Below, in pieces: positions 1,770-58,247 of a stretch of 64,000 nucleotides of DNA. Origin of the DNA: Astropecten irregularis (lineage: Eukaryota; Echinodermata; Asteroidea; Paxillosida; Astropectinidae); assembly GCA_963971285.1 (NCBI GenBank), contig OZ020248.1, positions 16,368,001 through 16,432,000 of the forward strand. Direction: 5' to 3'. The notes beneath the pieces are model-generated. The model was not told the DNA's origin. It saw nothing but the letters and a program-made list of their open reading frames with translations, and did no database searches. Both the position numbers and the translations under genes were made by a program. The first letter of the stretch is position 1, and every line of letters starts with the position of its first letter.

Positions 1770-1815
1770 ATGTCAGCCATCGCTATGATTTCTACCTCAG
1801 TGGCCCATGTACCAT
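1770..1815 (-). repeat. 46-bp captured fragment of the Helentron OTU coding region
   Basis: These 46 bases match 19784-19829, which encode the OTU segment around TWATEVEIIAMADM, with only two mismatches and in the same orientation. In the right copy the equivalent intron position (around 23436-23460) has unrelated sequence, so the piece was inserted into the left copy's leader intron alone. Confidence 0.75.
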
Positions 1816-1826
1816 GTACCAATGCA

Positions 1827-1885
1827 GGTCAGTCGAGTGCCGGTTCAGTAACCGGGAGGTTGCAGGTTCAAGTCCTCCTTCAATC
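1827..1885 (+). repeat. tRNA-like SINE fragment
   Basis: Contains a B-box-like GGTTCAAGTCC preceded by a degenerate A-box region. It does not fold into a full cloverleaf. It is also present in the right copy, so it predates the duplication. Confidence 0.4.
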
Positions 1886-3332: not shown

Positions 3333-3339
3333 TTTTATA
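3333..3339 (-). promoter_or_regulatory. TATA box, left Helentron
   Basis: TATAAAA on the minus strand, with a CG-rich flank just upstream. It lies about 260 bases before the predicted donor at 3075 and is conserved in the right copy at 26297-26303. The inferred start site is near 3305, giving a non-coding exon of about 230 bases. Confidence 0.45.
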
Positions 3340-3435
3340 CATCGCGCGCGTGGATTTAATATGCATAATATCTGTCGGCCGCAATAGTCGCTGGGATGAA
3401 TGAATTTTTCTGGGCTAAACGCATACGATTTTTGA

Positions 3436-4273
3436 AGTAGCTCCTCATTCAAAAGTGGTAAGAGCTAGGATCATTCATGATTCGTTCGTCAAAAGTCAAT
3501 GTTAGGTAAGGTCTTTCCTTGTGACACCATGGAGGGAGTCTATTTCTACCTCCATGGTGACACAAACACAACCAAAAGTTATGTGACTTCAGATTAAAGG
3601 TGCACTCTTCTAAAGTATAACTTGAAAGCTTCATAGGTTGTGACGATGTTTTATATCATATGCGGAAAAGCCATGTGTTCTGTAAATTTCCTATAGACTT
3701 AGCACAGGGGCATTCTGGCACCCACTTTGGTCACTTCTAAGCATTCAATCTTAACCAAACTTGGTCCAAATAAAGTCCATGAGGCCTTGTTGTACCGCGA
3801 ACAATGACGTCATCATGACGTCATCAGGTGTCAAATTACAAACAATTTAAATTTAATAATCAAAATCTTTAAAAATCAACAACAAATCAACCGTTTGAGA
3901 TACTAGTGTCAATACTAGGCAAGGTCTTTCTTTGTGACACATTGCTTGACCTCTGTGACCTCTACTTCCGGTCAAACAGGAAGTAGCTCCTCATTTAAAA
4001 GTGGTAAGAGCTACAATCATGATTCTTTCACCAAATATCAATATTAGGCAAGGTCTTTCTTTGTGACACATTGCTTGACCTCTGTGACCTCTACTTCCGG
4101 TTAAACAGGAAGTAGCTTGTCATTTAAAAGTGGTAAGAGCTACAATCATGATTCTTTCGCCAAATATCAATGTTAGGGAAGGTCTTTCTAATGACACAAT
4201 TCTTATTGATAAGCAATTTATATAATATGCGGAAAAGCCTTATGTGCTGTTCACAACAGCCATAAACCTCTAG
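3436..4273 (+). repeat. Family A Helentron-like non-autonomous element, 3' part
   Basis: Begins with the motif AGCTCCTCATTCAAAAGTGG directly beside the Helentron leader. It contains units of about 130 bp (TGACCTCTGTGACCTCT, ACTTCCGG, then GTGGTAAGAGCTA) and ends with GCGGAAAAGCC, a hairpin CTGTTcacAACAG and CTAG at 4270-4273 followed by T. A small hairpin at 3526-3562 is built on CACCATGGAGG. No coding potential. Confidence 0.6.
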
Positions 4274-5168
4274 TTTCTTCTTCTTCCTCTTCTTCAGCCA
4301 AATTTCGTATAGACTTTGTACAGGGACATTCTACGCGCCACTTTGGTCACTTTTAAACAGCTGATCTTAATCAAACTTGGTATGAAGGAAGTCCATATAG
4401 GGTACTTGTCTCCCGAAACTTTTCGTCATTGTGACGTCATCAGGTGTCATGTGACCAGTGATTTTAATTTAATAATCAAAAACTTTAAAAATCAACAAAA
4501 AATCAACGGTTTGAGATATTAAGTTGATTCTTTCACCAAAAGTATTTGTTAGGCAAGGTCTTTCTTTGTGAAACATTACTTGACCTCTGTGACCTCTACT
4601 TCCGGTCAAACAGGAAGTAGCTCCTCATTTAAAAGTGGTAAGAGCTACAATCATGATTCTTTCACTAAATATCAATGTTAGGCCAGATCTTTCTTTGTGA
4701 CATATCGCTTGACCTCTGTGACCTCTACTTCCGGTCAAACCGGAAGTTGCTCCTCATTTAAAAGTTTTTAGAGCTACTATCATGATTCTTTTACCAAATA
4801 TCAATGTTAGGCAAGGTCTTTCTTTGTGACCCATTTCTTGACCTCTGTGACCTCTACTTCCGGTCAAACCGGAAGTAGCTCCTCATTTAAAAGTGGTAAA
4901 GCCTATGATAATGATTCTTTCACCAAAGGTCAATGTAACGCAAGGTCTTTCATTTGTGTTACATTGCTTGACCTCTGTGACCTCTACTTCCGGTCAAACA
5001 GGAAGTAGCTCCTTGGTTTAAAGTGGTAAGAGCTAGAATCATGATTCTTTTACCAAAAGGCAATGTTAGGGAAGGTCGTTCTTAGTGACACAATTCTTAT
5101 TGATAAGCAGTTTATATCATAATGCGAAAAAGCCTTATGTGCTGTTCACAACAGCCATAAACCTCTAG
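4274..5168 (+). repeat. Family A element, unit 1 of a tandem pair
   Basis: A non-coding element of about 895 bp: pyrimidine-rich start (TTCTTC), a head with TGACGTCA and AAACTTGGTATGAAGG, five repeats carrying TGACCTCTGTGACCTCT plus ACTTCCGG, and a tail with GCGAAAAAGCC, a hairpin around CTGTTcacAACAG and CTAG at 5165-5168. It is nearly identical to the next unit. The hairpin plus CTAG resembles a Helitron 3' end (CTRR). Confidence 0.65.
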
Positions 5169-6071
5169 TTTTTTTTCTTCTTCTTCTTCCTCTTCTTCAG
5201 CCAAATTTCGTATAGACTTTGTACAGGGACATTCTACGCGCCACTTTGGTCACTTTTAAACAGCTGATCTTAATCAAACTTGGTATGAAGGAAGTCCATA
5301 TAGGGTACTTGTCTCCCGAAACTTTTCGTCATTGTGACGTCATCAGGTGTCATGTGACCAGTGATTTGAATTTAATAATCAAAAACTTTAAAAATCAACA
5401 AAAAATCAACGGTTTGAGATATTAAGTTGATTCTTTCACCAAAAGTATTTGTTAGGCAAGGTCTTTCTTTGTGAAACATTACTTGACCTCTGTGACCTCT
5501 ACTTCCGGTCAAACAGGAAGTAGCTCCTCATTTCAAAGTGGTAAGAGCTACAATCATGATTCTTTCACTAAATATCAATGTTAGGCCAGATCTTTCTTTG
5601 TGACATATCGCTTGACCTCTGTGACCTCTACTTCCGGTCAAACCGGAAGTTGCTCCTCATTTAAAAGTTTTTAGAGCTACTATCATGATTCTTTTACCAA
5701 ATATCAATGTTAGGCAAGGTCTTTCTTTGTGACCCATTGCTTGACCTCTGTGACCTCTACTTCCGGTCAAACCGGAAGTAGCTCCTCATTTAAAAGTGGT
5801 AAAGCCTATGATAATGATTCTTTCACCAAAGGTCAATGTTACGCAAGGTCTTTCATTTGTGTTACATTGCTTGACCTCTGTGACCTCTACTTCCGGTCAA
5901 ACAGGAAGTAGCTCCTTGGTTAAAAGTGGTAAGAGCTAGAATCATGATTCTTTTACCAAAAGGCAATGTTAGGGAAGGTCGTTCTTAGTGACACAATTCT
6001 TATTGATAAGCAGTTTATATCATAATGCGAAAAAGCCTTATGTGCTGTTCACAACAGCCATAAACCTCTAG
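5169..6071 (+). repeat. Family A element, unit 2 of a tandem pair
   Basis: Head-to-tail duplicate of the preceding unit with a 903-bp offset and only scattered substitutions, ending in the same hairpin and CTAG at 6068-6071. The near identity implies recent tandem amplification or rolling-circle read-through. Confidence 0.65.
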
Positions 6072-7160
6072 TTGGCTTTTTCGCGGAAGCGAAAAGCCTT
6101 TGTTTTTGTTCTGTTATTGGCTTTTTCGCGCAAGCGAAAAGCCTTTGTTTTTGTTCTGTTATTTTTTTTTCTTCTTCTTCCTGTCGCTTGAGTTACCATA
6201 GACTTTTTCTCGGTGGCACTTTGGCTACTTTTAAACTGCCAATTTGTACCAAACTTGGTCTGAAGGAAGTCCATATAGAGTAGTTGTCTCCCGAAACTTT
6301 TCATCTTCGTGACGTCATCAGGTGTCATGTGACAAGCGATTTGAATTTAATAATCGAAATCTTTAAAAATCAACAAAAAATCAACGGTTTGAGATATTAA
6401 GTTAATTCTTTCACCAAAAGTGAATGTTAGGCAGGGTTTTTCTTTGTGACACATTGTTTGACCTCTGTGACCTCTACTTCCGGTCAAACAGGAAGTAGCT
6501 CATTATTTAAAAGTGGTAAGAGCTAGGATCATGATTCTTTCACCAAATATCAATGTTGGGCAAGGTCTTTCTTTGTGACACATTGCTTGACCTCTGTGAC
6601 CTCTACATCCGGTCAAACAGGAAGTAGCTCCTCATTTAAAAGTGGTAAGAGCTAGGATCATGATTCTTTCGCCAAACATCAATGTTAGGGAAGGTCTTCC
6701 TTTGTGACACATTGGTTGACCTCTGTGACCTCTACTTAACGTCATTATGTATCACGGGACAGTGCCTTAAAGCGCAAACTTTACATGCCACAGGAAGTAG
6801 CTCCTCATTTAAAAGTGGTAAGAGCTAGGATAATGATTCTTTCGCCAAACATCAATGTTAGGGAAGGTCTTCCTTTGTGACACATTGGTTGACCTCTGTG
6901 ACCTCTACTTAACGTCATTATGTATCACGTGACAGTGCCTTAAAGCGCAAACTTTACATGCCAATAATAAGCGATCGAACCTACTATACATCCGATTATG
7001 TTTAAACTTGGTATGTATCTTAAGTCGGGAAGTGTTCTATTGAAAAAGGGCAATGACGTCATCCTCTAATTTTTAGCATGATTTATTGAACATTTAGTGA
7101 TTACTAAGGTCTTTTAACGATATATATTTAACACAAGATGTCTAATTTGGATTTCCGTTT
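6072..7160 (+). repeat. Family A element, 5' part with duplicated 5' hairpin
   Basis: Starts directly after CTAG with two copies of a hairpin GGCTTTTTCGC...GCGAAAAGCC (about 6074-6099 and 6119-6144). GGCTTTTTCGC is the inverted repeat of the GCGAAAAAGCC near family A 3' ends. Four repeat units of the TGACCTCTGTGACCTCT type follow, the last two being near-identical duplicates, then a tail with a CRE-like motif. No 3' hairpin or CTAG is present, so it is truncated or interrupted near 7.1 kb. Confidence 0.55.
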
Positions 7161-13689: not shown

Positions 13690-16600
13690 TCACATACTGA
13701 TACAAACACCTTCATGATAACTGTAATAAGTAGGAATTACAGTTGCACATACTGATTCTATATTTCTCACATAAACATGATCAATCAATGTCCCATTCTC
13801 TGTTGTTGCATCTGTCACACATTGTTTATATCCATGCTCACACATTAATTTCTCAATTTGTGAATGCTGTTTCAAAATATCTTCATTAAAATCACCTATT
13901 ACAATACATCTATTAGAAACGTTATGAAGTTCATTAAGTAGATCGTTGAGGTTGGCAATAAACTCAACCATAGAATATGATGCGGGACGATAAATTGTTA
14001 CCAAAGAAAATGACATTTCACAAATTATTTGTAATGCAATATACTCCAAGTTGTATACAGGTAAGATCAGCCTACTAAATGTCTTGTTTCTTCTACCATA
14101 CACAGCAACACCTCCATGACACTGTTTGCTTAACATGTGAGTAACACTGCATGAATTATTATATGAAGCACTTCTGACTTGATGGTAGCATTTGAAATCA
14201 CTTAATTCTGTCTCACAGTCAAACTCATTCTCACTCCATGTTTCTGTCAGACAAATGAAATCTGATGTAACCATATCAATGTTACATTTTAATTCTTGAA
14301 AGTGTTCTTTCAATCCTTGGATATTATGCATCATGATGACAGTGCCATTTGGTGGTAGTGTTCTTACATTAGACTCTTCAATAAATTCCATCATATTACT
14401 CAATGAATCCTTCACTGCTTTATTGCAATAAATAAACTTTTCATTGAACCCTTCAATCACAAGTCCATTTAGAGATGTTACTCTGCTTATTGCTACATAT
14501 GCTTGACCTGGTGAAAATGTCCGTTCAAGAGATACCACTGCTTTGTCTGTAGTAACTCCTTGTACTTTATGAACTGTACATGCCCAAGCTAATTTCAATG
14601 GAAATTGTCGCCTTATCCACTGTTTGCTTATATGTTCTTCTTCCCTTTCAATTCTAATAAATCCATCATTTGTTGCACTTTTCCTTTTCACTTTGGATCC
14701 AACACTCTTGCTATCAAATATAATATGTATGTATTCAGGGGTAGATTCATCATGTGACAGAATGATTTCACACACAGTTCCAAGTACTCCATTAACAAGT
14801 CCATCAGAAACATCAAGATTTTTTGTCAGCATAACTCTGGCACCAGTACCAACCCAGAATGATTCAGCCAAAGTCGTTCTTATTGACTTATTCGGTATTT
14901 TCACTCTTGCCGTTTTATGAGAATCTTTCTGAAAATCATTTGCTAAAACACAGAAATAATCACTGCACTTTGCAAATAGTATCTTCCTATTGTATTCATC
15001 AACCTGTTTATTACATGGAAATATATGTAACGCATCATCCCACTCTTCACCAGTTTCTCGTGATTGTAATAATGCTACATCTTCATCCAATAATTTATCT
15101 TGCTTAGCTCTGACACGTATTCTATTCAAAGTCTCAGCAAACTGCATATCATCCTTTTGTCTCATAATTTCCTTCAACTCTACTTTCTTAAAACAATCAT
15201 TCCACAGATCTACTGTAATATCTCTCTGATACAATGATTTCCCTTTAACTGGAGGTAGTTGATAAAAATCACCAACAGCTAAAATGCTCACTTTTCCAAA
15301 TGGCTTGAGATCACGTGTTTGCTTAATCTGACGCAGACGTCCATGAATGTAACACAACATTTTATGATCAACCATTGATATTTCATCAATAACAACAATC
15401 TGAAGATCTTGCAATTCATTCCTTAAAGTATTCAATTTGTCCTCACCTAAAGGTTGATATGGCAAACGTGCATCAGTAGGGATTGATAACGCACTGTGAA
15501 TTGTACTTCCATTGATATTAAAAGCTGCTACTCCAGTAGGTGCAGTTATCATTACAGACACATTATCAGGATTATGAACCATTCTTGTAAACAGTCTTGT
15601 TGCTTCATAATGTATTGATTTAATCAAATGACTTTTCCCAGTTCCAGCTCCACCAGTGATAAACACATGAAATGGTTCAGGGTTTTTGCCTTGTACCTTC
15701 TGTAAACACCAGTCTCGAATCTTATTAAACACTTCCCTTTGCTGTACATTCAATGACCTCAATAAACTTAGTGCATCTTGCTTTGATATTGTCACTGAAT
15801 GTGGTTCAATATTACACACTCTGTCTTTCTTGTCAGATTGTAGGTCAGGAATATTCAAATCATCATCTTCTGATAATACTGGCTCACGCTCTGCTTCACA
15901 TTCAAGTCTTTCTTGCTCAGATATTGGGGAAATCAAAGCCCATGCATCTTCTTGCATACCATGTTTTTCTACATATTGTTTAGCTGCTTCAAGAGCCTCA
16001 GCATTCTTCTCATATTTAGACCGATTACTTTCAACAACAACACTTACAGATTTCATTTGGTTTTTAAGAAAAACAGAACCACTCTTATAAAATTGTTCAT
16101 AATTATCAAACTGTGGTGGCTTCAATTGAGCATCTAAACGATATGGAAGAAACAATTGTAATATACTGTGGTAATATTTCTCTGGATATTTAGTCACTGA
16201 AAACCTTGGGTATCTTATGACTGCTGGTTCAGTTCTTGTACGTTTCTGTATGTGACCCAAACCATGTTTCAATGCATACACTGATGATTTTCTTGACGAT
16301 ATATTAGATGTATCTGCATTATAAATTATTCTGTACTCTGAACAAAATTTTGCCAAACACATTTGATTAAATTCATCACCATCCGGCCTTGCTTTATAAC
16401 GATCTATTTTATTAGTCATGAAAATATCAGCATCATCTTCACATTTGTTCTGAATAACACTTAGTGGCAAACTCATTCGTACAGGATTTTCACCAACAGG
16501 TATGAACTCCACTTTTCTAGAACCTTCTTTCAACCTCAGACCACAAACACGAAACACTGCTTCCTGAGCTGATAATTCTCTATTGTGTAAATACACACAT

Positions 16601-19600
16601 CCAATTTCCTTCATACTCTGTCTAGCATCTAAATTCCCCTTTTTGGCCTCGCTCTGTGCATGTGCTAATAATTGTCCCAATTCTCGTTCTGACTTTGACA
16701 TGTATGATACTATGTAAGCTGCACAGGCATATGCATCAGTGATATATTGAATATCCATATTAGCATTCCAGGCTCTTATTAAATCAGGATTATACAGATT
16801 CACCCATACATCTTGAGGCTCTCTCTTTAAAACAATAGTAGGTTTCTTGCTCAAAACATCATTGGCCTTCTCAAAATCAGTCTGTGTAATATTAATGCTT
16901 TGAAATAATTCAGATGTTGACATATGTTGATTCTTCTCATCTTGGATTGCATTCCACACTGATTGCAATAATTCCTTGGCTGCTGTACGTTTCTTTTCAT
17001 CATTACTAATGGAAGTACTTTCTTCATGATTATTTTCATCAACCTCACTATCTTTATCATTACATTCATCAGCTGGATCACGACTGGCAATAAATGTTCT
17101 ATTAGATGGTGGTCTTGGAAAATTAAATCTACATTCAGAACCTTTCTTTTTACAAGACTTAGTATGTTTTCTACTATGTCGCTGTACTTGACTGATTATT
17201 TCATTCAATTCCTCATCTTCTTCCTGTGTTGGTAACTTGCAACTGATATATTTATTAATGAATTTTATTACATCAGCATCATCGTCTTTTTCCAACTTTG
17301 GTGCATTCTCAATCCAAAACAGACAATGTGTGTGCGGAGATCCTCTTTGCTGAAATTCTACTCGGTAAAAATAGTCCTTGACTTTCCCAATGGGTGCTGC
17401 ACTGGACATAATAACATCTTTCAAAAATGTGTGAAATCGATTCTCAAACATTCTAGCCACAGTCACTGGATTGCTTCTCAATACTGTACATTTATCATTC
17501 CAATCCAAGTCTTCAATTTTTCTGAAATCTCCTTGCTGTCTCAATATTGTATTAATGACTTCAGGCCATCTCATATCAGCTGCAGAAAATGAGCAAAACC
17601 ATGTTGGTATTCCAAGTTGTCTAATCATAGCCATGACATCTCTCTGAGTTGATTGCCAATATGACGGTGTACCTCTAATTGGTTTCAAAAATTTATATCC
17701 ACTATCAGACAGTAAAATATCATTTAATTGATCTCTATTTTTAATCATGCTAGAATTAACACTCTGACCATAATGCATTTTCCCTGAACTTTGACGCATA
17801 GCAATTGATACACCAGACATCACCTTTTCAATTTCTGATAAATACTGGGCATAAAAGATATACTGAGTACATTTTGCAAATCTGTTATCTGCATTCATCA
17901 ACCTGTTATGAAAATATCTCAGGCGTGTCAGTTTTCCATCACGTTTATCATCAAATATAGGTGAGCCTGCTGGGAATAATGCTGGAAAACATTTAGCCTC
18001 ATTACCTTTCTCCATTAACACTCTAACTGGATTGTTTCCTTCACAAGGTGCAACACAAAGTACATCATCAAAATATTGATCAAGCACTTCTTGTCCAATA
18101 TCTATAGGCTGTAAACATGTATCAAGTGGAATACCACACAAACGATCCTCATCAGTTTCCTCATCACTTACACTAGGTTCATCAGATTCATGTACTAAGT
18201 CATCTTCATGTTCCTCATCATGTTCATCTAACAGGGGATCATTCCAATTACAATTGATTTCAATATCTTTATACCATGCATTGTTCTGCTTAAGATAACT
18301 CAATGCAGTTTCCACATGTTCCTTAGTCACAAATTGATATTGATAATGTCCTTTATATGTTAATCTTCTCTTCAACTTGATTCGAATTAACTGATTTTCA
18401 TTTTTGCATCTCGGCAATGCTGTCACTGTATCTGTAATGTTAGATGGTACACATACAACAGGACCGTGTATTCCATTCTGTCCACCTTTCGGCAAGGCTA
18501 CCATTTTCATGAAAGGTATATTAATTGCAATGAGATGCTCCTCTAATATATTCAAACAATTCAATTCTTGTGGAATGTCTATCACTTGTAAATTATTTGT
18601 ACATGCTTCTACTGGTACTTTCTTCTGGAGTAATGTCCTATGACATGTGTAACATATCCACAATCTAGACCTGCTAGATTTTGATACAACACATTCATTT
18701 CCACACTGTTTTGAACATATACATTTATGTAAATATTTGTCAGATATACAACTAATATTGCTGTATTTGTCTTTATTGCATCTAATGACTTGTTTTTTAA
18801 ACAAAAGTTTGCAACAAACTACACAAACATACTCAGGTCCAGTTGACACTTCATTCTTCCATTTTCTGATAACATTCCTCATGTTCCTTGCTTGTTGGGC
18901 TTTTATACGTCTTTGTCTTAAAACCCTCTGCTTCATTTTCTTACGATAATCTGCATCATGACGATACTTGCATTTCAGATTTTTCATCAAATTTGCTCTG
19001 TACACATGATTACTCCAATACTTTTTCTTGATAGAGTTAATGACAGCATTTCTGTATACTCGGTTACTATGATACTTATTTTTGGCACTGTTTATTTTTT
19101 TCCGTCTAAATGCAGCATCTTCATAATACCTGGCTTTTGTACTATTAACCTTTCTTTCTCTATATGAACAATCTTCATGATATTTAGTTTTTTCACTCCT
19201 AACTTTTCTTTCTCTATACACACTATCTTTGTAATACTTTTCCTTTAACAATTTCCTTTTTTTACCATCATTTTCTGCATATTGTTTCCTGTCATATTCC
19301 AGCACACTTTCTCTGAATTCTTTACAATTAGCATATTTCTGTCTCTTTGCAATTTTTTTCTTTTCCCTGTATGCTCTGTTCTCTTCTACAATTTGAGCAT
19401 TTCTTGTTTTATTGTATCTTTCTCTTGCTTTCTCTCTGTCTAATTTCCGTTTCAAAGCTACATTTACACGTTTACGTCTCTTTCTCTTTTGCTGAAAATG
19501 CATTTGCGTATCTTCCCTTCTAGTATTACTTTGATTTACATGAACATTACTGATTGGGTCTGTACAAGTACCTTCAGACAATAAATCTCTGTTACGGTTT

Positions 19601-22600
19601 TCCGAATTGTCACCTGGATTACTTGTAACATGTTCATGAACATTCACAACTAAATCATAGTGAACTTCATTTCTATGATACAAATAAATTCCACAATCTG
19701 ATAATCTCTCAGTATTGGTGAATGAACGAGAAAACAAATACCACTTATTTGCATCACTATATGTGTATAAATCAACACCCAACATGTCAGCCATTGCTAT
19801 GATTTCTACCTCTGTGGCCCATGTACCATTATGAAACAACCTCTGCCTAACCACATAATCTTCCACTGTAGAAAAACCTTCTCTTAAAAAGCATTTAAAT
19901 TTATCAGCATATTTCAGCAAATGATTAACAGTAAGAGTTCTCACATGTCTATGATTTTCTTCAGTTCCTGATATAGCACAAGAAATAGCTCTAAAGAAAC
20001 AGTTCCCATCACCTCTAATCTTCCTTATAGAATCAGGTCTTCCCATGTTCTCACATCTTGTGGAAATCTCATCAGTATTCAAACGTACTTTGCTCAACCC
20101 AAATTTCTGACACAATGTAATCTTCCTGTTTTTAGTCAGTGGCAAAAAGTTCAAAGAAACTGGTTCAGTAACTTGTATTATTTCTAAATCACTTTCACTC
20201 TTCTTATCACCACTTAATTTAGGATCAAATTCTATATTATGCATGCTATCTGACAAAACACTGTGTGATGTACTTGCTTTGACTCCATAAATTCCTTTAT
20301 TGTTTTGAATTTCATTAGTTTCCATTGTCTCATTTAAACATTGAGTGTCCACGCCTTGTGTGCAACTGCTGGAACAAGCACCTTCAGTGTTGTCAACATG
20401 TTGTTCACTACAGATACTGATGTCATGACTAATGCAAATATTAACACCTGTAATTTCAAATTGCTCACTATCAGACAGATTCATAGAATGTCCAAGTTCA
20501 GTACAATACCTGTACACACCTTGCCATGTCAAAGAACGCTGCAAAATACTTGTCCCATCTTGAACTTGACGGCCATGAACACTTCTGGAATGTGAATCAA
20601 ATACATAATAAATTCCACCGTGGGAAATCACTGCAAAAGTATTTCCATGAAAACATATGAAACATGCTTGATATTTCTGAATTGATTGTTCTATAGCTAG
20701 TTTCAGTGAAATCATGTTGAACTCTGCCAAAGTTGAATCCTGTTCATTGAATGTTCCTACTACAGGTTCCGCATAATTCATATTGAAGTTGTTTTCATAC
20801 ACATTCAAATCGGTTGGTAATTCATTGATAAGCAGATAATCATTATTCATAGTTGAACTTTGCTGTAAAAATCCATACAGTTCATTGCCAGTGTTAAGCA
20901 CATTGTCCATGTCATTCCTTCCCCAATTATTCATACATTTTATCTGACTTTTCATAATTGCACTCAAGGACATGGCTACACATTGCTTTCCAATATTTCT
21001 TCCAAACCGTATATTTCCTTGATGACAGCTGCCTTGTGCAACGATTGATTGATCAATTGCTTCATCATTTATTTTTGTACTATTCACTGTCTTACAACAC
21101 ATCATTTTGGCAGGTTTAACCACATCATCAGACTGCATTTCATTAATCTTATTCTTCAAATCTGCATCAACCTTTCTCTTTCTCCTGGTATTTGTATGTA
21201 TTCCTGTCACATTAAATTTGCTTGCATTATTTACAGATCTAATTCCAGTTGTCTTGACATCATTTTTAGTGCCATCCTTGTTTCTGCTGTGACTTTCTGT
21301 TTGTCTAGTGTCATCAATGTGGGGCAAGGATTTCTCACTTTGACGTCTCTCACACTTTTTTGGACACTCTCTGGGCTGTGATTGATTATCGGTACATTTC
21401 TCCTTTTCACTTGAAGTATCAGGTGAAATTGTTTTCCTCTTTCTTAAAAAGTAACCACCACTCTGTTGTCTTATTGACTGTTTACCAGTACTTAGTTTAA
21501 CATACCAATTTCCTGTCTTTGGTGTATCATTCCTTCTGTTCTCCTTGTCAGACACTTGATCAATAGGTCCACCTGAGCACTGGTCTACTGCACTGTCCGG
21601 CATATCAAACTGATTCTCATCTGTACAAATACCAAAATTGTGAAACAAACTGTCAGAGTAATTACTATGTCCACATTTACAACAAACCCAAGTGAATGTC
21701 TTACCAGTTAAATATTCCTTAATATTCAAAATACCTGTGCAAGTCGTATGAAACCACACACAACATTTATCACATTGTATCTTCCTTTTGGCACACCCAT
21801 CACTTTTATCACAAAGCCAACACACATTGCCATTATCACTTTCTGTTTCCAGGTCCTTGACTTTCTCCTCTCTTACTACACAGGTCCTTCTCTTCTTACC
21901 TCCTTTCATGACTTTCATGGACATTTTCCAGACATTCTTTTTCATTCCTCTCCTTCCTTTTACAGTCTGTCTTACATGGATAACTTTGCTTATACATCTT
22001 CTTGTATGACAAAATGTAGATTTCATTACTTCTTCATGTACTTGTCTGTCCTTCTTAGACATACGCTGCTCAATTGATTTACCATTTCTTCTGTAATTAT
22101 ACATCATATGTTTCCTGGCCTTTCTTGTCATTCTTACTTGCTTTGGAACCGTGTATCCAGTTGTTTGACACTTCTGATTCTTCCTCTGTTGACGACACTT
22201 CCAACTATATGAACATGTACATGTTGCTCTCACTTCTCTCTTCAATGTACGAGGACACTTCTGCTTCAATGGTATTGTGAATACACCTCTCACCTGGTTC
22301 TTACACTTATCCTGACCTCTGTTGTATCTTCTCATATGGCTCTTATCATGACTCCTTCTAAACCTCAACTTACATCTCTTCACACAGCCCATCATATGCA
22401 TCATTCCACAGCTGCTTACCTCATGACTGCTTACCTCATGATTGCTTACCTCATGACTGCTTACCTCATGACTGCTTACCTCATGACTGCTTTCTAGACT
22501 CTTACATCCTTCCTCATGGCATGTCTTATGACTCGTCTCAAACTTCACCTCACCGTTCGTCTCATGGCTCATCTCACGTTCCAGGTAACTCGTTCTTTCA

Positions 22601-23004
22601 ACATATTTCTTATAACCATGACAATAATAGCTCTTTAAACCATGACGATAGCTTTTTAAACCATGACGATTGCTTTTTAAACCATGACTATTATTCAACT
22701 TCTTATTATTCAACTTTAATTTATGGCTGTTGCTGATAGCAAGCACTGGTGCCTGGTTCTCAGCAACGTCCTCAAGCAAGAGTGCTTGAGTCACAAGCCC
22801 AGTGTGGACTTGAGTGGGAAAGGAAAGGAAAGAGGAATAGCCAGAAATAGAGTGAGAAACACAAGAGCTGAGCAAAGAAAGGCTAGAGAAGTCAGACACA
22901 AACATGTAAGTGTGAGAAAAAACAGACACTCCTCCAACGGGCCTCCTCATCCTCCGGAACTGCACTTCATCCTTCAACGTCTTAGATCTCTGGAACTTTG
23001 GCAT
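13690..23004 (-). CDS. Helentron-type Helitron polyprotein: PHD, C76-like, OTU, HUH Rep, Pif1 helicase, EEP nuclease
   Basis: One intronless frame of about 3,104 codons from the ATG at 23002-23004; the frame is open 13 codons further, across a predicted splice acceptor. Approximate residues, counted from 23043: Ser/His/Lys repeats 90-230; PHD finger 407-460; C76/UL36-like peptidase 665-850 with HQGNIRFG, GKQCVAMSL and FDSHSR; OTU peptidase 1008-1132 with RGDGNCFFRA and NEVHYDLV; basic KYxxDxxYR repeats 1180-1395; Cys-rich domain 1404-1630; Helitron-like N and Rep domain 1700-2120 with HUH motif SPHTHCLFW and a Tyr cluster YACAAYIVSYMSK; Pif1-like helicase 2430-2860 with GGAGTGKSH, IDEISMVD, GDFYQLPPV and VAISRVTSLNGL; EEP endonuclease 2900-3117 with TETW, IGDFNED and IDHVYV. 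By family knowledge Rep nicks and joins single strands and the helicase unwinds; the endonuclease and OTU mark the Helentron group. Oddity: the final EEP motif reads SYH rather than SDH. Peptidase roles are unknown. Confidence 0.93.
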   Translation of the reverse strand: MPKFQRSKTLKDEVQFRRMRRPVGGVSVFSHTYMFVSDFSSLSLLSSCVSHSISGYSSFLSFPTQVHTGLVTQALLLEDVAENQAPVLAISNSHKLKLNNKKLNNSHGLKSNRHGLKSYRHGLKSYYCHGYKKYVERTSYLEREMSHETNGEVKFETSHKTCHEEGCKSLESSHEVSSHEVSSHEVSNHEVSSHEVSSCGMMHMMGCVKRCKLRFRRSHDKSHMRRYNRGQDKCKNQVRGVFTIPLKQKCPRTLKREVRATCTCSYSWKCRQQRKNQKCQTTGYTVPKQVRMTRKARKHMMYNYRRNGKSIEQRMSKKDRQVHEEVMKSTFCHTRRCISKVIHVRQTVKGRRGMKKNVWKMSMKVMKGGKKRRTCVVREEKVKDLETESDNGNVCWLCDKSDGCAKRKIQCDKCCVWFHTTCTGILNIKEYLTGKTFTWVCCKCGHSNYSDSLFHNFGICTDENQFDMPDSAVDQCSGGPIDQVSDKENRRNDTPKTGNWYVKLSTGKQSIRQQSGGYFLRKRKTISPDTSSEKEKCTDNQSQPRECPKKCERRQSEKSLPHIDDTRQTESHSRNKDGTKNDVKTTGIRSVNNASKFNVTGIHTNTRRKRKVDADLKNKINEMQSDDVVKPAKMMCCKTVNSTKINDEAIDQSIVAQGSCHQGNIRFGRNIGKQCVAMSLSAIMKSQIKCMNNWGRNDMDNVLNTGNELYGFLQQSSTMNNDYLLINELPTDLNVYENNFNMNYAEPVVGTFNEQDSTLAEFNMISLKLAIEQSIQKYQACFICFHGNTFAVISHGGIYYVFDSHSRSVHGRQVQDGTSILQRSLTWQGVYRYCTELGHSMNLSDSEQFEITGVNICISHDISICSEQHVDNTEGACSSSCTQGVDTQCLNETMETNEIQNNKGIYGVKASTSHSVLSDSMHNIEFDPKLSGDKKSESDLEIIQVTEPVSLNFLPLTKNRKITLCQKFGLSKVRLNTDEISTRCENMGRPDSIRKIRGDGNCFFRAISCAISGTEENHRHVRTLTVNHLLKYADKFKCFLREGFSTVEDYVVRQRLFHNGTWATEVEIIAMADMLGVDLYTYSDANKWYLFSRSFTNTERLSDCGIYLYHRNEVHYDLVVNVHEHVTSNPGDNSENRNRDLLSEGTCTDPISNVHVNQSNTRREDTQMHFQQKRKRRKRVNVALKRKLDREKARERYNKTRNAQIVEENRAYREKKKIAKRQKYANCKEFRESVLEYDRKQYAENDGKKRKLLKEKYYKDSVYRERKVRSEKTKYHEDCSYRERKVNSTKARYYEDAAFRRKKINSAKNKYHSNRVYRNAVINSIKKKYWSNHVYRANLMKNLKCKYRHDADYRKKMKQRVLRQRRIKAQQARNMRNVIRKWKNEVSTGPEYVCVVCCKLLFKKQVIRCNKDKYSNISCISDKYLHKCICSKQCGNECVVSKSSRSRLWICYTCHRTLLQKKVPVEACTNNLQVIDIPQELNCLNILEEHLIAINIPFMKMVALPKGGQNGIHGPVVCVPSNITDTVTALPRCKNENQLIRIKLKRRLTYKGHYQYQFVTKEHVETALSYLKQNNAWYKDIEINCNWNDPLLDEHDEEHEDDLVHESDEPSVSDEETDEDRLCGIPLDTCLQPIDIGQEVLDQYFDDVLCVAPCEGNNPVRVLMEKGNEAKCFPALFPAGSPIFDDKRDGKLTRLRYFHNRLMNADNRFAKCTQYIFYAQYLSEIEKVMSGVSIAMRQSSGKMHYGQSVNSSMIKNRDQLNDILLSDSGYKFLKPIRGTPSYWQSTQRDVMAMIRQLGIPTWFCSFSAADMRWPEVINTILRQQGDFRKIEDLDWNDKCTVLRSNPVTVARMFENRFHTFLKDVIMSSAAPIGKVKDYFYRVEFQQRGSPHTHCLFWIENAPKLEKDDDADVIKFINKYISCKLPTQEEDEELNEIISQVQRHSRKHTKSCKKKGSECRFNFPRPPSNRTFIASRDPADECNDKDSEVDENNHEESTSISNDEKKRTAAKELLQSVWNAIQDEKNQHMSTSELFQSINITQTDFEKANDVLSKKPTIVLKREPQDVWVNLYNPDLIRAWNANMDIQYITDAYACAAYIVSYMSKSERELGQLLAHAQSEAKKGNLDARQSMKEIGCVYLHNRELSAQEAVFRVCGLRLKEGSRKVEFIPVGENPVRMSLPLSVIQNKCEDDADIFMTNKIDRYKARPDGDEFNQMCLAKFCSEYRIIYNADTSNISSRKSSVYALKHGLGHIQKRTRTEPAVIRYPRFSVTKYPEKYYHSILQLFLPYRLDAQLKPPQFDNYEQFYKSGSVFLKNQMKSVSVVVESNRSKYEKNAEALEAAKQYVEKHGMQEDAWALISPISEQERLECEAEREPVLSEDDDLNIPDLQSDKKDRVCNIEPHSVTISKQDALSLLRSLNVQQREVFNKIRDWCLQKVQGKNPEPFHVFITGGAGTGKSHLIKSIHYEATRLFTRMVHNPDNVSVMITAPTGVAAFNINGSTIHSALSIPTDARLPYQPLGEDKLNTLRNELQDLQIVVIDEISMVDHKMLCYIHGRLRQIKQTRDLKPFGKVSILAVGDFYQLPPVKGKSLYQRDITVDLWNDCFKKVELKEIMRQKDDMQFAETLNRIRVRAKQDKLLDEDVALLQSRETGEEWDDALHIFPCNKQVDEYNRKILFAKCSDYFCVLANDFQKDSHKTARVKIPNKSIRTTLAESFWVGTGARVMLTKNLDVSDGLVNGVLGTVCEIILSHDESTPEYIHIIFDSKSVGSKVKRKSATNDGFIRIEREEEHISKQWIRRQFPLKLAWACTVHKVQGVTTDKAVVSLERTFSPGQAYVAISRVTSLNGLVIEGFNEKFIYCNKAVKDSLSNMMEFIEESNVRTLPPNGTVIMMHNIQGLKEHFQELKCNIDMVTSDFICLTETWSENEFDCETELSDFKCYHQVRSASYNNSCSVTHMLSKQCHGGVAVYGRRNKTFSRLILPVYNLEYIALQIICEMSFSLVTIYRPASYSMVEFIANLNDLLNELHNVSNRCIVIGDFNEDILKQHSQIEKLMCEHGYKQCVTDATTENGTLIDHVYVRNIESVCATVIPTYYSYHEGVCISM

Positions 23005-23457
23005 TTTGTCCTGAAAACAAATTGAAAAGAAAAAAAAACACATTAAACATCAGTAGACAGACAACACATTAAAGGGATGTTTTCCTAACCCACACTATTT
23101 ACACTGTAGCAAGATGGCCCATTCATTGAGGGTTGTCTTTTATATTATTTTTAATCATTCATGTTTTTTAGGTTCAACTGCATCAGTCAGTGATTTGTTC
23201 TTTTTCTTTAAATGACTTCAGTGTTTCGGTTGTCTGAATATCAATTAATGTCAGTTCCCGTTCTGGTTTGTTTGAAAGTGTTTTTATACAAAATAAGCCA
23301 GACCCCTTTGGGAGATTCCTGAAGTTTGTTGCTACAATGATTAAATTGATCCTTCGGATATAGCAGCATACAGTAATGTCTCCTTTCATAGCTTCTGACT
23401 GAAAACCAAAAAAAAGTACAATTTAAGACACTGAGAATGTAGGGCTGGAAAATGCGG

Positions 23458-23512
23458 GACAGTCGAGTGCTGGTTCAGTAACCGGGAGGTTGCAGGTTCA
23501 AGTCCTCCTTCA
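23458..23512 (+). repeat. tRNA-like SINE fragment, right copy
   Basis: Counterpart of the fragment at 1827-1885: TTCAGTAACCGGGAGG, then the B-box-like GGTTCAAGTCC. It lacks the captured OTU piece that precedes the left copy. Confidence 0.4.
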
Positions 23513-24449
23513 GTCAACCTTCTTCGGTCTTCTTGACTTGAGCAAATCCCGTCAACTTCCGAGGCCTTGCGTAGTTGTTTATTTCAAAGCATATTCATAT
23601 ACTATCTTGTTCAAGGTTTTTCATAATAATTGTTAACAAGTTACAAAGACACCGTTTGATTACCTCTATACTGAAATGCTATTCAAGTGACATACACAAG
23701 AGACATAAATGTCCAAATATAGTATAAAGGGCAGATATTACTTAAAAGCAGCAAAACATAATCAGAACAAAAATAATAACTTTTGTGTACTCGAAAAGTG
23801 CAAAAAAAGTATTAAAAAGAAATCATCATGATTTTCATAATTGTCTTATTGCGAATATTGGCATTGACAGACTCATAACAAATCAATAACAGAAATATAA
23901 ACCATTCACTAAAACTCCTTCAATTTACATAAAATGTTGAATATGATTCAAACACAAGTAAGATCACTTACATTCAATTCCTAACTTTTTGTTTGCAATG
24001 TGAAGCCACTGGTTATAAACCCAACAGTCAAAATTATGCTACTTTGGACTACAGCACAATATTGTACATGTATGTAGGACATAATGTTTATGTAAACAAA
24101 AAAAGGAAAAAATTAATATAAGCAGACGTCCCCAAGAATCAATCAAAATACCTTCATAAGTTCATATCAGAATCATGGAAAAAAAAAACATTCTGAAATA
24201 CTATTGTTGCCCCAGCACTGCCACTACTATTACTTTTAGTAATGCAGTAGGATCAACTGAAAAAGTCTGAATTATACAATGGAGTATTTCCTCCGACAAC
24301 GATTAATTTATACTGAACATCATTAATAATAAAACAATTTGTTATTATCCATGTTTAATTTTCATCAAATAAATGAATTGCTAGGCCCCCTATGGATAGA
24401 TCCTAAATAAAGCAAAACTATACAAGATAATACAACCTACTCAACATAG

Positions 24450-25695
24450 GGGGTTCCTGAAGTTTAGTAGTTTTAGTACACTCGGGTTAGCTAGTACCTA
24501 CTTCTAGATTTAGAAGGCTACTCCGTGAGCCTTCTAGCACTCTTACTTTTCGGGGTGCCGTAACGCTATGGGTTTTGAAAACAACAATTGATAGATGAAA
24601 TTTTGTTGAAACATTGCAGCACCTACCGCCACTCCTAGATCGTGAATTCCCCTAAATCATTTTTTTTCTTGATCCTCATACATCCGTTATGCTTGTGCAG
24701 TCTCATTTTCGCAATTGACCCACAACTTTTCGAGAAAAAAAATCGACTTTCTGCGCCACTCCACTCGAGGAAAGATTTCTGTTTTCGAGTTCATTCATAC
24801 ATTTTTTTACTATGGGCCACAACATTTTTGTATAGGGGTGTGCACATTGAAGAAGACATGAAAATCATGCATGCCACATGCACACCACACAGCAAGCAGG
24901 AGCCAGCCACAATAAAAAAAAAAAAAAAAAAGCTTGAACAACTGGTATCCATGCACATAAGAGCCATTTCAATGCATGCATCAACCGGGGAACCAGTGAA
25001 GTCAAGTTAATTGCACCCCTTCAGAAAATGGTAGATCCAATAATGCGCATGCGGACTAGACAACTTTAAGCAGCAGGTAAACTTCGACATTTCGGCAAGC
25101 GGAGTGACACAGAAAATCAATTTTTTTCTCGAAAAGTTGTGGGTCAATTGCAAAAATGAGACTGCACAAGCATAACGGATGTATGAGGATCAGTAAAAAA
25201 AATAATTAATGGGAATTAACGATCTAGGAGTGGCGGTAGGTGCTGCAATGTTTCACCAAAATTTCATCTATCAATTGTTGTTTTCAAAACCCATAGCGTT
25301 ACGGCACCCCGAAAAGTAAGAGTGCTAGAAGGCTCACGGAGTAGCCTTCTAAATCTAGAAGTAGCTAGTACCCAGCTTCTACTCACCTAAATTCTAGGTA
25401 AGAAGAAGCTGGGTACCAGTCTACCTGAGTGTACTAAACTGTGGGCCTTTACGAAATGGGGCTTGAGGCTAGGCTTGGCAATTGTTTTTCTACTGCCATT
25501 TTGTGTCCTAAATGAAATGAAGGGCTTGAGATACATGGCAAAGCTGGAGCCTTTCCCCAGCTTCATCATGTGGCCCAATCCCTTCATTTCATTTTGTGGG
25601 CTTCAAATGGCAGTAGTGAAATAAGTCCCAAGCCTAGCCTCAAGCCTAATTTCGTAAAGGCCCCTAGCCTGAGTGTACTTAACTTCAGGAACCCC
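24450..25695. mobile_element. Compound foldback MITE with 8-bp target duplication
   Basis: Ends GGGGTTCCTGAAGTT and AACTTCAGGAACCCC are perfect inverted repeats flanked by the 8-bp duplication CAACATAG (24442-24449 and 25696-25703). The left Helentron has the corresponding unfilled site near 2758-2775. Most of the interior is a second, larger inverted repeat (roughly 24475-24765 against 25095-25375), including GGGGTGCCGTAACGCTATGG and CACCTACCGCCACTCCTAGA. No transposase is encoded. An 8-bp duplication fits hAT- or P-like insertion, but the ends do not match a family I recognise. Confidence 0.8.
25440..25668. mobile_element. Nested inverted-repeat element within the MITE
   Basis: GGGCCTTTACGAAAT...GGCTTGAGGCTAGGCTTGG on the left faces CCAAGCCTAGCCTCAAGCC...ATTTCGTAAAGGCCC on the right. 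A short direct repeat CCTGAGTGTACT (near 25424 and 25670) lies on either side. A second inner inverted repeat involves GAAATGAAGGG and GGCAGTAG. Confidence 0.6.
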
Positions 25696-26296
25696 CAACA
25701 TAGGCATAGCTTTACATGTTCACATAGGCCTAGTAAGTAGTACAAAGTGCAACAGAACCACAACAAGAAGAGATTTACACAGCACAGGTTGAATAGTAAC
25801 AACAATGCAATGCCTAACGTTACCCCGGCCATGCACATGAACGAAAGAACACCCTTCCCTTCGGTTTGTTTCAAATTATTTGTAAACCGAATTCCTCTTC
25901 AAACATATTATGGCAATCGCAACAGACGCTAGTTTATAAAGACTTAGATGGTACATGTACCTCGCACTACTCACTGAAATATACACAAAAACAAACATTT
26001 TTATTTCATAAAGCAACATTTCAACCTACTTACTTCGCGTGGTGAAAAAACACTGTGTTGTCATGAATAGATTGTTCTCCTCCAAGCTGTAGCTAGTAAA
26101 CACTCTCATTGAGACAGGATACACGACCAAAATGTAAGCCCGTGTCCCAATTATCTGGCTGCGGCTGCAAATTACGTACTTACATATGGCAGCCACTAGC
26201 CATTGACTGCAGCCGTCGGAACGCGGCCTAAGACATGCGCAGAACGGTGGTTGTTGTACGGAAGCCGAATTATGCCAGATGATCTCTCAAGTTTTG

Positions 26297-26303
26297 TTTT
26301 ATA
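26297..26303 (-). promoter_or_regulatory. TATA box, right Helentron
   Basis: TATAAAA on the minus strand in the same context as in the left copy (CG-rich upstream, CAAAACTTGAGAGATCA downstream). The inferred non-coding exon runs from about 26270 to 26034, where the GTAAGT donor lies. Confidence 0.45.
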
Positions 26304-26409
26304 CATCGCGCGCGTGCATATATTTTTTATGCATAATATCTGTCCGCCGCAAAAGTCGCTATCAGATGAATGCATTTTTCTAGGCTAAACGCATACGATT
26401 TTTGAATTA

Positions 26410-26646
26410 GCTCCTCATTCAAAAGTGGTAAGAGCTAGGATCATTCATGATTCTTTCGCCAAAAGTCAATGTTAGGCAAGGTCTTTCCTTCAGTGACACA
26501 AACACAACCAAATTACGTGACTAAGATTAAAGGTGATAAAGCTTTATATCTTAATCAAATGTCTTTGTGTGTATAAGGTTGTGACGATTTTTTATATCAT
26601 AAGCGGAAAAGCCCTGTGTTCTGTTTTCAACAGACACAACCTCTAG
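26410..26646 (+). repeat. Family A element, 3' end beside the Helentron
   Basis: Starts with TAGCTCCTCATTCAAAAGTG and ends with AAGCGGAAAAGCC, a hairpin TGTTCTGTTTTCAACAGACA and CTAG at 26643-26646. The left copy has the same join at 3436, so this family A piece is part of the duplicated unit. Confidence 0.6.
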
Positions 26647-27534
26647 TTTTTTTTTCTTCTTCTTCCTGTCGCCTGAGTTACCATAGACTTTTTCTCGGTG
26701 GCACTTTGGCTACTTTTAAACTGCCGATTTTAACCAAACTTGGTCTGAAGGAAGTCCGTATGGGGCAGTTGTCTCCCGAAACTTTTCGTCATCGTGACGT
26801 CATCAGGTGTCATGTGACAAGCGATTTTAATTTAATAATCAAAATCTTTAAAAATCAATAAAAAATCAACGGTTTGAGATATAAAGTTGATTCCTTCACC
26901 AAAAGTGTTTGTTGGGCAGGGTCTTTCATTATGACACATTGCTTGACCTCTGTGACCTCTACTTCCGGTCAAACAGGAAGTAGCCCCTCATTTAAAAGTG
27001 GTAAGAGCTAGGATTATGATTCTTTCACCAAATATCAATGTTAGGCAAGGTCTTTCTTTGTGACACATTGCTTGACCTCTGTGACCTCTACTTCCGGTCA
27101 AACAGGAAGTAGCTCCTCATTTAAAAGTGGTAAGAGCTACGATTATTATTCTTTCACCAAATATCAATGTTAGGCAAGGTCTTTTTTTGTGACACATTGC
27201 TTGACTTCTGTGACCTCTTCTTCCGGTCTAACCGGAAGTAGCTCCTCATTTAAAAGTGGTAAAAGCTAGGATCATGATTCTTTCACCAAAAGTCCATGTT
27301 AGGTAGGGTCTTTCTTTGAGACACATTGCTTGACCTCTGTGACCTCTTCTTCCGGCCAAGCAGGAAGTAGCTCCTAATTATAAAGTGGGAAGAGCTAGGA
27401 TCATGATTTTTTTTTCCATTTGTCCCATTAAGGGATCCCTTTCTTTGTATAGCATATTATATATCTGTATATCAATTTAAAATACCATATGCGGAAAAGC
27501 CTTATGCGCTGTTTCTAACAGCCATAAACTCTAG
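26647..27534 (+). repeat. Family A element, complete-looking unit
   Basis: Pyrimidine-rich start, CRE-bearing head, four ~130-bp repeats with TGACCTCTGTGACCTCT or a close variant, and a tail with GCGGAAAAGCC, hairpin and CTAG at 27531-27534. Directly follows another CTAG end, so the elements lie head to tail. Confidence 0.6.
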
Positions 27535-28977
27535 TTTCTTCTTACTCTTCTTCAGCCAAATTTCGTATAGACTTTGTACAGGGGCATTCTACACGCCACT
27601 TTGGTCACTTTTAAACAGTCGATCTTAACCAAACTTGGTATGAAGGAAGTCCATATAGGGTAGTTGTCTCCCGAAACTTTTCGTCATCATGACGTCTTCA
27701 GGTGTCACGTGACAGTGTCTTAAAGGGGCAAACTTCAGACATCAATTATGAACGAACCCTAAGTTTGATTGAGTTGAAACTTGGTATGTATCTAAGTCGG
27801 GAAGTGTTATATCGAAACATTTCAATGACGTCATCATGACGTCATCAGGTGTCACGTGACAGTGTCTTAAAGGGGCAAACTTAATACATCAATTATGAAC
27901 GAACCCTAAGTTTGATTGAGTTGAAACTTGGTATGTATCTAAGTCGGGAAGTGTTATATCGAAAAATTTCAATGAAGTCATCATGACGTCATTCTCTGAT
28001 TTTTTATGATTTATTGAAATGTTGGGTTATTAAAGTTCTTTTAACGATATCAAGTAAACAAAACAAGATATCTTTGAATTTCTTTTTGATAATTATTAAG
28101 CATACACCATAGATGAAAACTACATAGACAAAAAATCGGTGACGTCATCATGACGTCATAAAAATTGCATTTTTTATAACACACAGTAGGAACGGCCGAT
28201 CGCCTAGAAAATTGGTAGGTTGGGGAAATGGAAGTTGCGGATCGTAATCATGAAGTTACGTCACGACGGCGTCATCACTTGAATTTTTATGATTTTTAAA
28301 ATCTTTCTCACGCTAGCCCAATGACTTGTACAGAGCTCTGTACGTGAAAATATTGGTCATAAAATGAAACATACGATTTAAACACCATTCATGCCAGGCG
28401 CGCGAAAGGTTGTTTGCCTACTTTATATATGCCGTGTTCTCCTTTTTTTCCTTATCATAGTTGCCTATAGCGTAAATGCTGTTTTTGACAAGACAACCAC
28501 GCACTCGCAACAATCTACTTAGACCGTTTTCAGTAATGCATGAATCGGTAATCCGAGCAGACGGTTTTGAATGGCGCCCTCTTTTGATTAAACAAAGTAC
28601 ATAGTTGCTTGTTTTGATCAAAAGAGGGCGCCATTCAAAACCGTCTGCTCGGATGACTGTTATTCGTTAGGCCATGCCAGGGGTGCTTTGTTTTCAGACA
28701 GCAGTGTTTACCCGTTTGCATCTATATGGCACACAGTCGCACTTAGTTTTATAAAACCACTTTATGTGGCCAAGACACGTGACGTAAGATTAAAGGTGCA
28801 CACTTCAAAACTCCAAAAGTGATTTGTTTAACTCAAGTTTTCTACATTTAGATACGGTCACTTTTAAACCATCTGTCTCAATCAAACAAAATAAGTGATG
28901 TGTTTTAATTGGAGAAATATTTTATATCATTATGCGGAAAAGCCATGTGTTCTGTTTTAAACAGACACAACCTCTAG
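27535..28977 (+). repeat. Family A-related element with duplicated CRE block
   Basis: Same head as other family A copies, then two ~120-bp repeats (TGTCACGTGACAGTGTCTTA..., GTATGTATCTAAGTCGGGAA) with several TGACGTCA motifs, a 1-kb non-coding middle holding a separate hairpin element, and a tail with GCGGAAAAGCC, hairpin and CTAG at 28974-28977. Confidence 0.5.
28556..28656. mobile_element. Small hairpin MITE
   Basis: Near-perfect inverted repeat of about 40 bp per arm: GAGCAGACGGTTTTGAATGG...CTCTTTTGATTAAACAA facing its complement, with a loop of about 20 bases. No coding capacity. Confidence 0.75.
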
Positions 28978-30701
28978 TTATTTATTGATGGCTTTTCCGA
29001 TTTTAATCATGACGTCATCTTCTGATTTTCTTATGATTTTATTGAAGTTGTTGGTTATTGAACTTCTTTTAACGATATCTAGTGAACGAAAAAAGATATG
29101 TTTGAACACTACATAGACAAAAATACTGTGATGTCATCATGACGTCATCAAAAGGGACGTAAAGAACACACATACAAGATAATAGCCGATCGCTTCGGAA
29201 TTTGGTGGGTTGGACGGATATAGGTTGGAGATTAAAATTATGAAGTTACGTGAGGATTACGTCTTCCCTTGATTTGTTATTAATTTTTCAATATGCCATG
29301 CAAACCCTATTGACGCAGTACATGCAGTAAATGGGGCGCGGACATTGTATAGTATAATAGCCAGGTTTCGTTCTTAATAGCACTTTTAATCAGTTTGTGT
29401 ACTTATCTACTTAAGCCATCATTAACTTATTGCTTGCTTCAGTGCTGATGTGATGACAAGAGACTCTGATTAGTATCAGATGGAAGTCACTGCAAGGTGA
29501 TTTAAATGTGTTTCATACTGAGTGATTGTCTCAGTGGAAACACATGAAAGCAAGGCCAAGTATGGTTTAGAGCGTGGGTGTGAAGCGAACATTTACGTCA
29601 TCAAGACGTCATCACTTGATTTTATATGAATTTTAAAATATTTCTCACACTAGCCCGTTAACTCTGTACACATACATGTATGTATTACATGAAAATATGG
29701 TCATGTACAAAACATATGATGATCGATTGACTCAATTCCCCATACACTATGTACGTTCGTAATTCACTGTGTATAACATACATGTACATGTAATGTCTGA
29801 TTGTGTGACTCAAAACTTCGTTTACATATTAATCTGAATCGAAACGCTATCAATGTATGTTGCGGAGTATTGTACGTCATTGTGTCCAATGACAATGTGT
29901 TCCCTAATCCCCGCATCTGAATGGGTTAAAATGTAGTTTTTATGTTCAGATATGGTCATCTTTAAACCATAAAACAAATAAAATAAGTGATGTGTATTAA
30001 TTCGAGATATATTCTATATCATATGCGGAAAAGCCTTGTGTTCTGTTTTCAACAGACATAATAGTCTTCTTCTTCTTCTTCTTCTCCTCCTCAAGTCTAT
30101 GGGAATTTGTACACGATTTTTCTACGCTCCACTTTGGTCACTTTAAACAGTCAATCTTAACCAATCTTAGTCTAAACAAAGTCCATATATAGTAGATGTA
30201 CGCCGCAAATTTACGTCATCGTGACGTCATCAGGTGTCAAATTACAAGCAATTTGAATATATTAATCACAATCTTTAAAAATCAACAAAAAAATAAACGA
30301 TTTGAGATATTAATTTGATTTGTTCACGAAAAGTTAATGTTAGGTAAGGTTTTCCTATTTGACACATTACTTGACCTCTGTGACCTCTACTTCCGGTCAA
30401 AAAGTAAGTAGCTCCTCATTTAAAAGTGGTAAGAGCTATGATCATGATTCTTTTACCAAAAGTCAATGTTAGGCAAGGTTACTCTTTGTGACACAATTCT
30501 AATTGACAAGCAATGTGTTCCATAAACCCTGCAACAAATGGTTTAAACTTTAGTTTTCTACATTGAAATATGGATACTTTTAAACCATTACGTCTTAATC
30601 AAACAAAATAAGTGATGTGTATTACATGTGTAATTCAAGATATATTCTATATCACATGCGGACAAGCCATGTGTTCTGTTTTCAACAGACACAATTTCTA
30701 G
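28978..30701 (+). repeat. Family A-related mosaic
   Basis: Begins with a GGCTTTTCCGATTTT remnant of the 5' hairpin after CTAG. It contains TGACGTCA blocks, a decayed 3' end at about 30025-30062 (GCGGAAAAGCC, hairpin, no CTAG) and a second element with one DR3/ETS repeat ending in CTAG at 30698-30701. Part of it (29.4-29.86 kb) is repeated at 50.05-50.69 kb. Confidence 0.45.
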
Positions 30702-58173: not shown

Positions 58174-58247
58174 AGGGCTGGATGGTTTGATTGGTAGAGC
58201 ACCTGTACGGTATTCAGGAGGTCGCCGGTTCAAATCCCGCTCCAGTC
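58174..58247 (+). repeat. tRNA-derived SINE
   Basis: GGCTGGATGGTTTGATTGGT AGAGC (A box), CCTGTACGGTATTCAGG arm, GGTTCAAATCC (perfect B box) and CCAGTC able to pair with GGCTGG. Tail AATTTTTCTTTATTCACTTT as in the 43- and 46-kb copies. T stem has one mismatch and the loop lacks the usual T33, so a SINE rather than a tRNA gene. Confidence 0.6.

Follow-up and report, generated by a model that had tools for sequence, protein, structure and literature searches.

The 64,000-nucleotide window analysed here, from the starfish Astropecten irregularis (assembly GCA_963971285.1, contig OZ020248.1, positions 16,368,001 to 16,432,000 of the forward strand), contains a putative full-length, possibly autonomous Helentron of an echinoderm-type clade. 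Its protein combines two deubiquitinase folds that are unrelated to each other, a VTD (Herpes_teg_N or C76-type) peptidase followed by an OTU domain, and upstream of both lies what appears, judged from its sequence, to be a genuine PHD finger. The VTD and OTU pair is common in Helentrons and is not new, while no Helitron protein with a PHD finger was encountered in the literature searched, a weak negative given the thin coverage of subscription papers and Repbase. That a selfish element keeps two unrelated deubiquitinase folds next to each other suggests that ubiquitin removal aids transposition.

Two deubiquitinase folds in a Helentron protein

The protein is encoded on the minus strand, as are all the domains described below, by a single uninterrupted frame running stop-to-stop from 23049 to 13690 (3119 amino acids). 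The likely start is Met16, as indicated by a related protein from Asterias rubens (P0122) and by a second copy of the element in the window, giving a Rep/helicase/endonuclease open reading frame at 13690–23004.

The VTD fold spans residues 667–875 (20425–21051), with a Pfam core at residues 674–823 (20581–21030) where the Herpes_teg_N profile scores 39.5 bits against a cut-off of 25. The OTU fold occupies residues 996–1138 (19636–20064), and its Pfam core at residues 1012–1127 (19669–20016) reaches 40 bits against a cut-off of 23.3, with an additional match to OTUD5 (E 3.7e-12). Both active sites are complete, comprising Q677, C690, D818 and H820 in the VTD (Gln, Cys, Asp-x-His) and D1014, C1017 and H1130 in the OTU domain. 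In structure prediction both domains fold as expected, with fold matches to 8add, 2j7q and OTUD3/1/5. The original prediction, made from the DNA letters, had placed a C76/UL36-like region at about residues 665–850 and a separate OTU domain at about 1008–1132, with all likely catalytic residues visible, and these assignments are borne out.

The assignment to Helentrons comes from the rest of the protein. The Helitron_like_N (Rep) domain lies at residues 1713–1910 (17320–17913) and the PIF1 helicase at residues 2433–2636 (15142–15753), with whole-protein Pfam scan values of E 2.7e-34 (PF14214) and E 3.6e-28 (PF05970), respectively; the HUH-type motif PHTH starts at residue 1905. At the C-terminus, an AP-type endonuclease (Exo_endo_phos, PF03372) covers residues 2909–3096 (13762–14325) with 28.9 bits against a cut-off of 24.5 (E 1.2e-6), and this region has no sequence match in PDB at E ≤ 0.1. 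The protein hallmarks of Helentrons, an HUH Rep, a fused Pif1-type helicase and a C-terminal AP-type endonuclease, are all present. Subterminal inverted repeats and a T-T insertion site are further features of Helentrons. Between the OTU domain and the Rep are found a basic linker at residues ~1250–1372 (18934–19302) and a DUF6570 domain at residues 1476–1600 (18250–18624; Pfam). The linker, between OTU and DUF6570, contains K-Y-x-x-D-x-x-Y/F-R-type repeat units, and similar KYxxDxxYR-type repeats are present in the consensus of the relatives.

The frequency of these domains was estimated among relatives of the element. The Rep-helicase region was matched by 728 of 3473 candidate proteins, and the best 120, together with the window protein, form a set of 121 that was picked by Rep-helicase likeness and is not a fair sample of Helentrons at large. 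A VTD is present in 76 members, an OTU domain in 71 and both in 62, although some gene models may be truncated, which affects the counts of absent domains. The active site is complete in 64/76 VTD proteins and 62/71 OTU proteins, and of the 62 proteins with the pair, 50 are complete in both. Counted by domain, the active-site set of the window protein recurs in 67/90 VTD and 65/83 OTU domains.

The VTD beside the OTU had been put forward as an undescribed architecture, a claim ruled out by these 62 proteins and by published work. It has been described that most non-viral VTDs reside in Helitrons, that their hosts belong to the Helentron subclass, and that 121 VTD-bearing Helitrons also carry an OTU domain (Erven et al. 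2022, PMC9741609). Those Helentrons, including zebrafish DrT2, share with the window protein the AP-type endonuclease, the VTD and the OTU domain, and their VTDs are alike in active-site residues and fold (PMC9741609). When assayed, three VTDs from zebrafish Helitrons reacted with a ubiquitin probe and favoured K48 and K63 chains, and cleavage of ubiquitin or NEDD8 has been demonstrated for homologues of the VTD; the OTU domains of transposons had, according to the same study, no prior assay (PMC9741609). The same swap of VTD for OTU is seen among herpesvirus relatives (PMC9741609), and OTU domains in Helentrons had been reported before 2022 (PMC4067079). By analogy with the assayed zebrafish homologues, the VTD of the window protein would be expected to remove ubiquitin.

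The PHD finger and its distribution

The finger, predicted at about residues 407–460, was located at residues 410–459 (21673–21822), with a C4HC3 zinc-ligand pattern ending in W-x-C-x-x-C. When residues 395–475 are scanned alone, PF00628 matches at 410–459 with E 5.8e-5 and 23.5 bits; while both peptidases pass their Pfam cut-offs, the finger falls just below its curated value of 24, and in the whole-protein Pfam scan no PHD is among the matches at E ≤ 1. The best solved-structure match of the region is the PHD finger 1wee (E 8.6e-6), and the sequences of known structure that come nearest, TAF3 and MLL among them, are PHD fingers. The PHD fingers of TAF3 and MLL are histone-tail readers. Elsewhere PF00628 scores 25.3 bits in the second window copy, 25.6 in P0022, 18.7 in P0027 and 21.7 in P0024. 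The preservation of the finger in the second copy argues that it is genuine, and a chance cysteine pattern is ruled out by the PDB matches, this copy, the relatives and the Pfam scores.

A profile built from the PHD regions of the window protein and of P0022 and P0027, both from Antedon mediterranea, detected the finger in five of the 121 proteins, adding P0024 (E 2e-18) and P0025 (E 2.7e-18) to its three sources; the next-best protein scored E 0.18. A strict-pattern search recovered three of the 121, and no PHD accession was seen in the domain lists that the database gives for the 120 relatives. All five carriers have the order PHD, VTD, OTU and keep complete active sites in both peptidases. 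The window protein, P0022 and P0027 also have in common a CGxSN(Y/F)(A/S)D tail after the finger. P0024 (503–534) and P0025 (431–468 and 638–672) have additional PHD-like half-fingers, which lack the last cysteine pair and lie between their first finger and their VTD.

The Antedon mediterranea proteins are close in layout to the window protein, sharing PHD, VTD, OTU, DUF6570, Rep and helicase in identical order. They differ from the window protein in a PHD finger that lies closer to the N-terminus and carries His (P0022) or Asn (P0027) at the position of Trp432; the finger of P0022 is 37% identical to that of the window protein, and the domain list of P0022 is without the endonuclease. Asterias rubens P0122 (549 amino acids) matches the N-terminal part of the window protein and ends within the finger; in the stretch 405–437, 33 residues align and show 73% identity. 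Its row is misaligned in the PHD of the relatives' alignment and was disregarded there. Two protein searches were made with the PHD alone. One found no match at E ≤ 1 among 9 candidates; the other, which allowed shorter proteins, gave a single match at E ≤ 10 among 7 candidates, P0122 (1.5e-6). The search is word-based and too insensitive to bear on the origin of the PHD.

In the midpoint-rooted Rep-helicase tree of the 121 proteins, the PHD carriers sit in a 19-tip clade with support of 0.997. All 11 tips with organism names are echinoderms (sea urchins and Antedon), and the window protein is another tip. The PHD is not a one-off, since related elements share it, and it was probably present early in the clade. 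The carriers are not monophyletic within it, which fits a finger gained early and then lost or truncated in some members, or one gained more than once. A CR1/L2-like LINE (long interspersed nuclear element) or the host is a plausible source of the finger, as a conjecture.

The three-domain combination had been proposed as new. Its peptidase pair is known, and the addition of the PHD is the part that is absent from the Helitron literature searched; the main text of PMC9741609, whose two assayed elements are both from zebrafish, contains no mention of PHD. The cases there that come closest to a Helitron PHD are host-transposon fusions of fungi, where a PHD sometimes accompanies a helicase classed as Academ, Kolobok or Helitron (PMC10799480), and Ginger1-9_HM (PMC2836005). 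The latter resembles the window element as a DNA transposon with a PHD and a ubiquitin-like-modifier-type protease, but its transposase is Gypsy-integrase-like and its protease is Ulp1; a Ginger1 protein is described there as having OTU or Ulp1, never both, in contrast with the two peptidases of the window protein (PMC2836005). PHD fingers are also known from CR1/L2 LINEs, in the ORF1 protein and, for some elements, probably at the beginning of ORF2 or of the only ORF, but these are retrotransposons and no deubiquitinase was seen for them in that account (PMC4120745). A PHD variant of Helentrons would show that a module known from LINEs is in use by rolling-circle elements.

Possible roles of the accessory domains

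The favoured reading, to which we give somewhat better than even chances, is that the deubiquitinases shield either the transposition complex or its partners against removal that depends on ubiquitin, with the PHD finger docking on chromatin or on another partner. The HUH Rep, Pif1 helicase and AP-type endonuclease would move the element, while the VTD and OTU would between them clear ubiquitin chains of different linkage from the transposase or host partners, so that the complex would be neither degraded nor extracted during its work. The PHD finger would anchor the protein on chromatin or a nuclear partner. It has been suggested that the VTD prevents proteasomal degradation (Erven et al., PMC9741609), and a general targeting of integration has been suggested for the PHD of LINEs (PMC4120745). 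The original prediction had proposed ubiquitin editing combined with PHD-directed chromatin targeting; the first part is supported by the assayed zebrafish homologues of the VTD, and the second is a guess. A more specific version would make this echinoderm lineage a chromatin-guided ubiquitin eraser, whose PHD leads it to marked nucleosomes and whose VTD and OTU, with differing chain preferences, deubiquitinate histones or the factors of silencing and repair while rolling-circle transposition is under way at the donor or target site; we regard it as distinctly improbable. An uninterrupted protein with VTD, OTU and PHD offers a compact test case, with three separable domains and obvious point mutants.

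Several observations weigh against the favoured reading. Neither peptidase is present in 36 of the 121 proteins, while 14 have the VTD only and 9 the OTU only, so the peptidases are apparently not needed in every Helentron. The PHD of the window copy lies 0.5 bit below the Pfam cut-off and is missing from the whole-protein scan, and Pfam lists nothing for P0122, whose sequence ends inside the finger. Between the two window copies, the ratio of nonsynonymous to synonymous substitution rates (dN/dS) for residues 405–466, which include the PHD, is 0.36 with a bootstrap range of 0.13–1.24, compatible with neutrality. Finally, Trp432, which precedes the zinc-binding His by two residues and occupies a methyl-lysine cage position, is kept in the second window copy and in P0122 but replaced by His in P0022, P0024 and P0025 and by Asn in P0027, which makes a shared role in reading histone marks uncertain.

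It may well be, at a little less than even chances, that the zinc finger is PHD-like without being a histone reader and binds DNA, RNA or protein, as LINE ORF1 may do. The change of Trp432 in four relatives and the weak matches (23.5 bits) point this way, as does the ranking of models, in which PF00628 is top for three full fingers of relatives with RING-type models next, and a half-finger of P0024 scores higher with a RING-like model. Furthermore, the authors of PMC4120745 were unaware of any functional work on a LINE PHD. The C4HC3 spacing with its W-x-C-x-x-C end nevertheless fits a PHD, and PHD fingers, including those of TAF3 and MLL, are the closest sequences of solved structure.

The main rival to the shielding of the transposition complex, although unlikely, is self-processing, in which the VTD and/or OTU would cleave the transposon polyprotein, for instance after Gly-Gly, and free the PHD module or separate the Rep. 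OTU cleavage of Rep, helicase and endonuclease has been proposed for Helentrons (PMC4067079), and among viral deubiquitinases, cleavage of polyproteins at di-glycine sites is frequent (PMC9741609). A motif of the form I/V-Q-Q-L-x-G-G-G is present between PHD and VTD in all four other PHD carriers (P0022 333–340, P0027 342–349, P0024 373–380 and P0025 569–576), in an otherwise variable linker. The window protein has a weaker form, IRQQSGG, at residues 526–532, a degeneracy that argues against cleavage at this site, and QQLxGGG may just as well serve DNA binding or mark a junction. Across linkers in the 76 proteins that have a VTD, L/I/V/M-x-G-G occurs 20 times against ~12 expected from composition, which is no clear enrichment, and 6 of the 20 sites fall in the four related PHD carriers; a family-wide L-x-G-G cleavage signal is unsupported.

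That the accessory domains are passengers, acquired by the element and kept without selection for transposition, is quite improbable. Helentrons are known to carry captured genes (PMC4067079), many relatives are without at least one of the accessory domains and the PHD is restricted to five of the 121 proteins. Against this stand the complete active sites in most VTD and OTU proteins, and the comparison of P0022 with P0027, in which the VTD (80% identity) and OTU (89%) are far above the post-PHD linker (54%). The PHD also exceeds that linker (67–72%), yet it is level with the VTD–OTU linker (69%), and for this reason constraint is less well supported for the PHD than for the peptidases. Between P0024 and P0025 identity is 94% in the PHD and 74% in the post-PHD linker, but 95% in the VTD–OTU linker.

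The reading frame is also preserved between the two window copies. The second copy comprises the N-terminal and 5´ part of the element (1–2769, minus strand, ending at the window edge), and its frame (2–1369) is open through the PHD (23–172). All 10 in-frame indels between the copies are multiples of three, and dN/dS over residues 16–466 (433 codons) is 0.535 (bootstrap 0.37–0.80). The N-terminal part is under selection for protein sequence between the two copies. Within residues 405–466 they differ at 10 amino acids, none of them a zinc ligand.

Copy arrangement and other features of the window

The two Helentron copies have the same orientation (window 1–6962 and 21651–30695), lie ~21.65 kb apart and are ~90% identical over the ungapped columns of the shared part. 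Each has repeat arrays at 129 bp spacing on its 5´ side. The layout looks like a tandem arrangement, which rolling-circle elements can generate. Upstream of the frame of the second copy, on the same strand, a 16-residue OTU-like fragment (1769–1816, minus strand) is 87.5% identical to part of the window OTU (E 1.8e-4). The 5´ region of the first copy contains an inverted repeat (24492–25370) with 250-nt arms, 96% complementary and separated by 379 nt, where the second copy is without a counterpart stretch.

As for other reading frames, nine of the 23 frames of at least 120 amino acids were scanned and gave no match over a curated Pfam cut-off. Three Rfam tRNA-family matches were detected at 43345–43417 and 46575–46647 (minus strand) and at 58176–58248 (plus strand). 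Since these lie inside repeats common to the three places, while ARAGORN finds no tRNA gene in the window, they are probably tRNA-derived SINEs (short interspersed nuclear elements).

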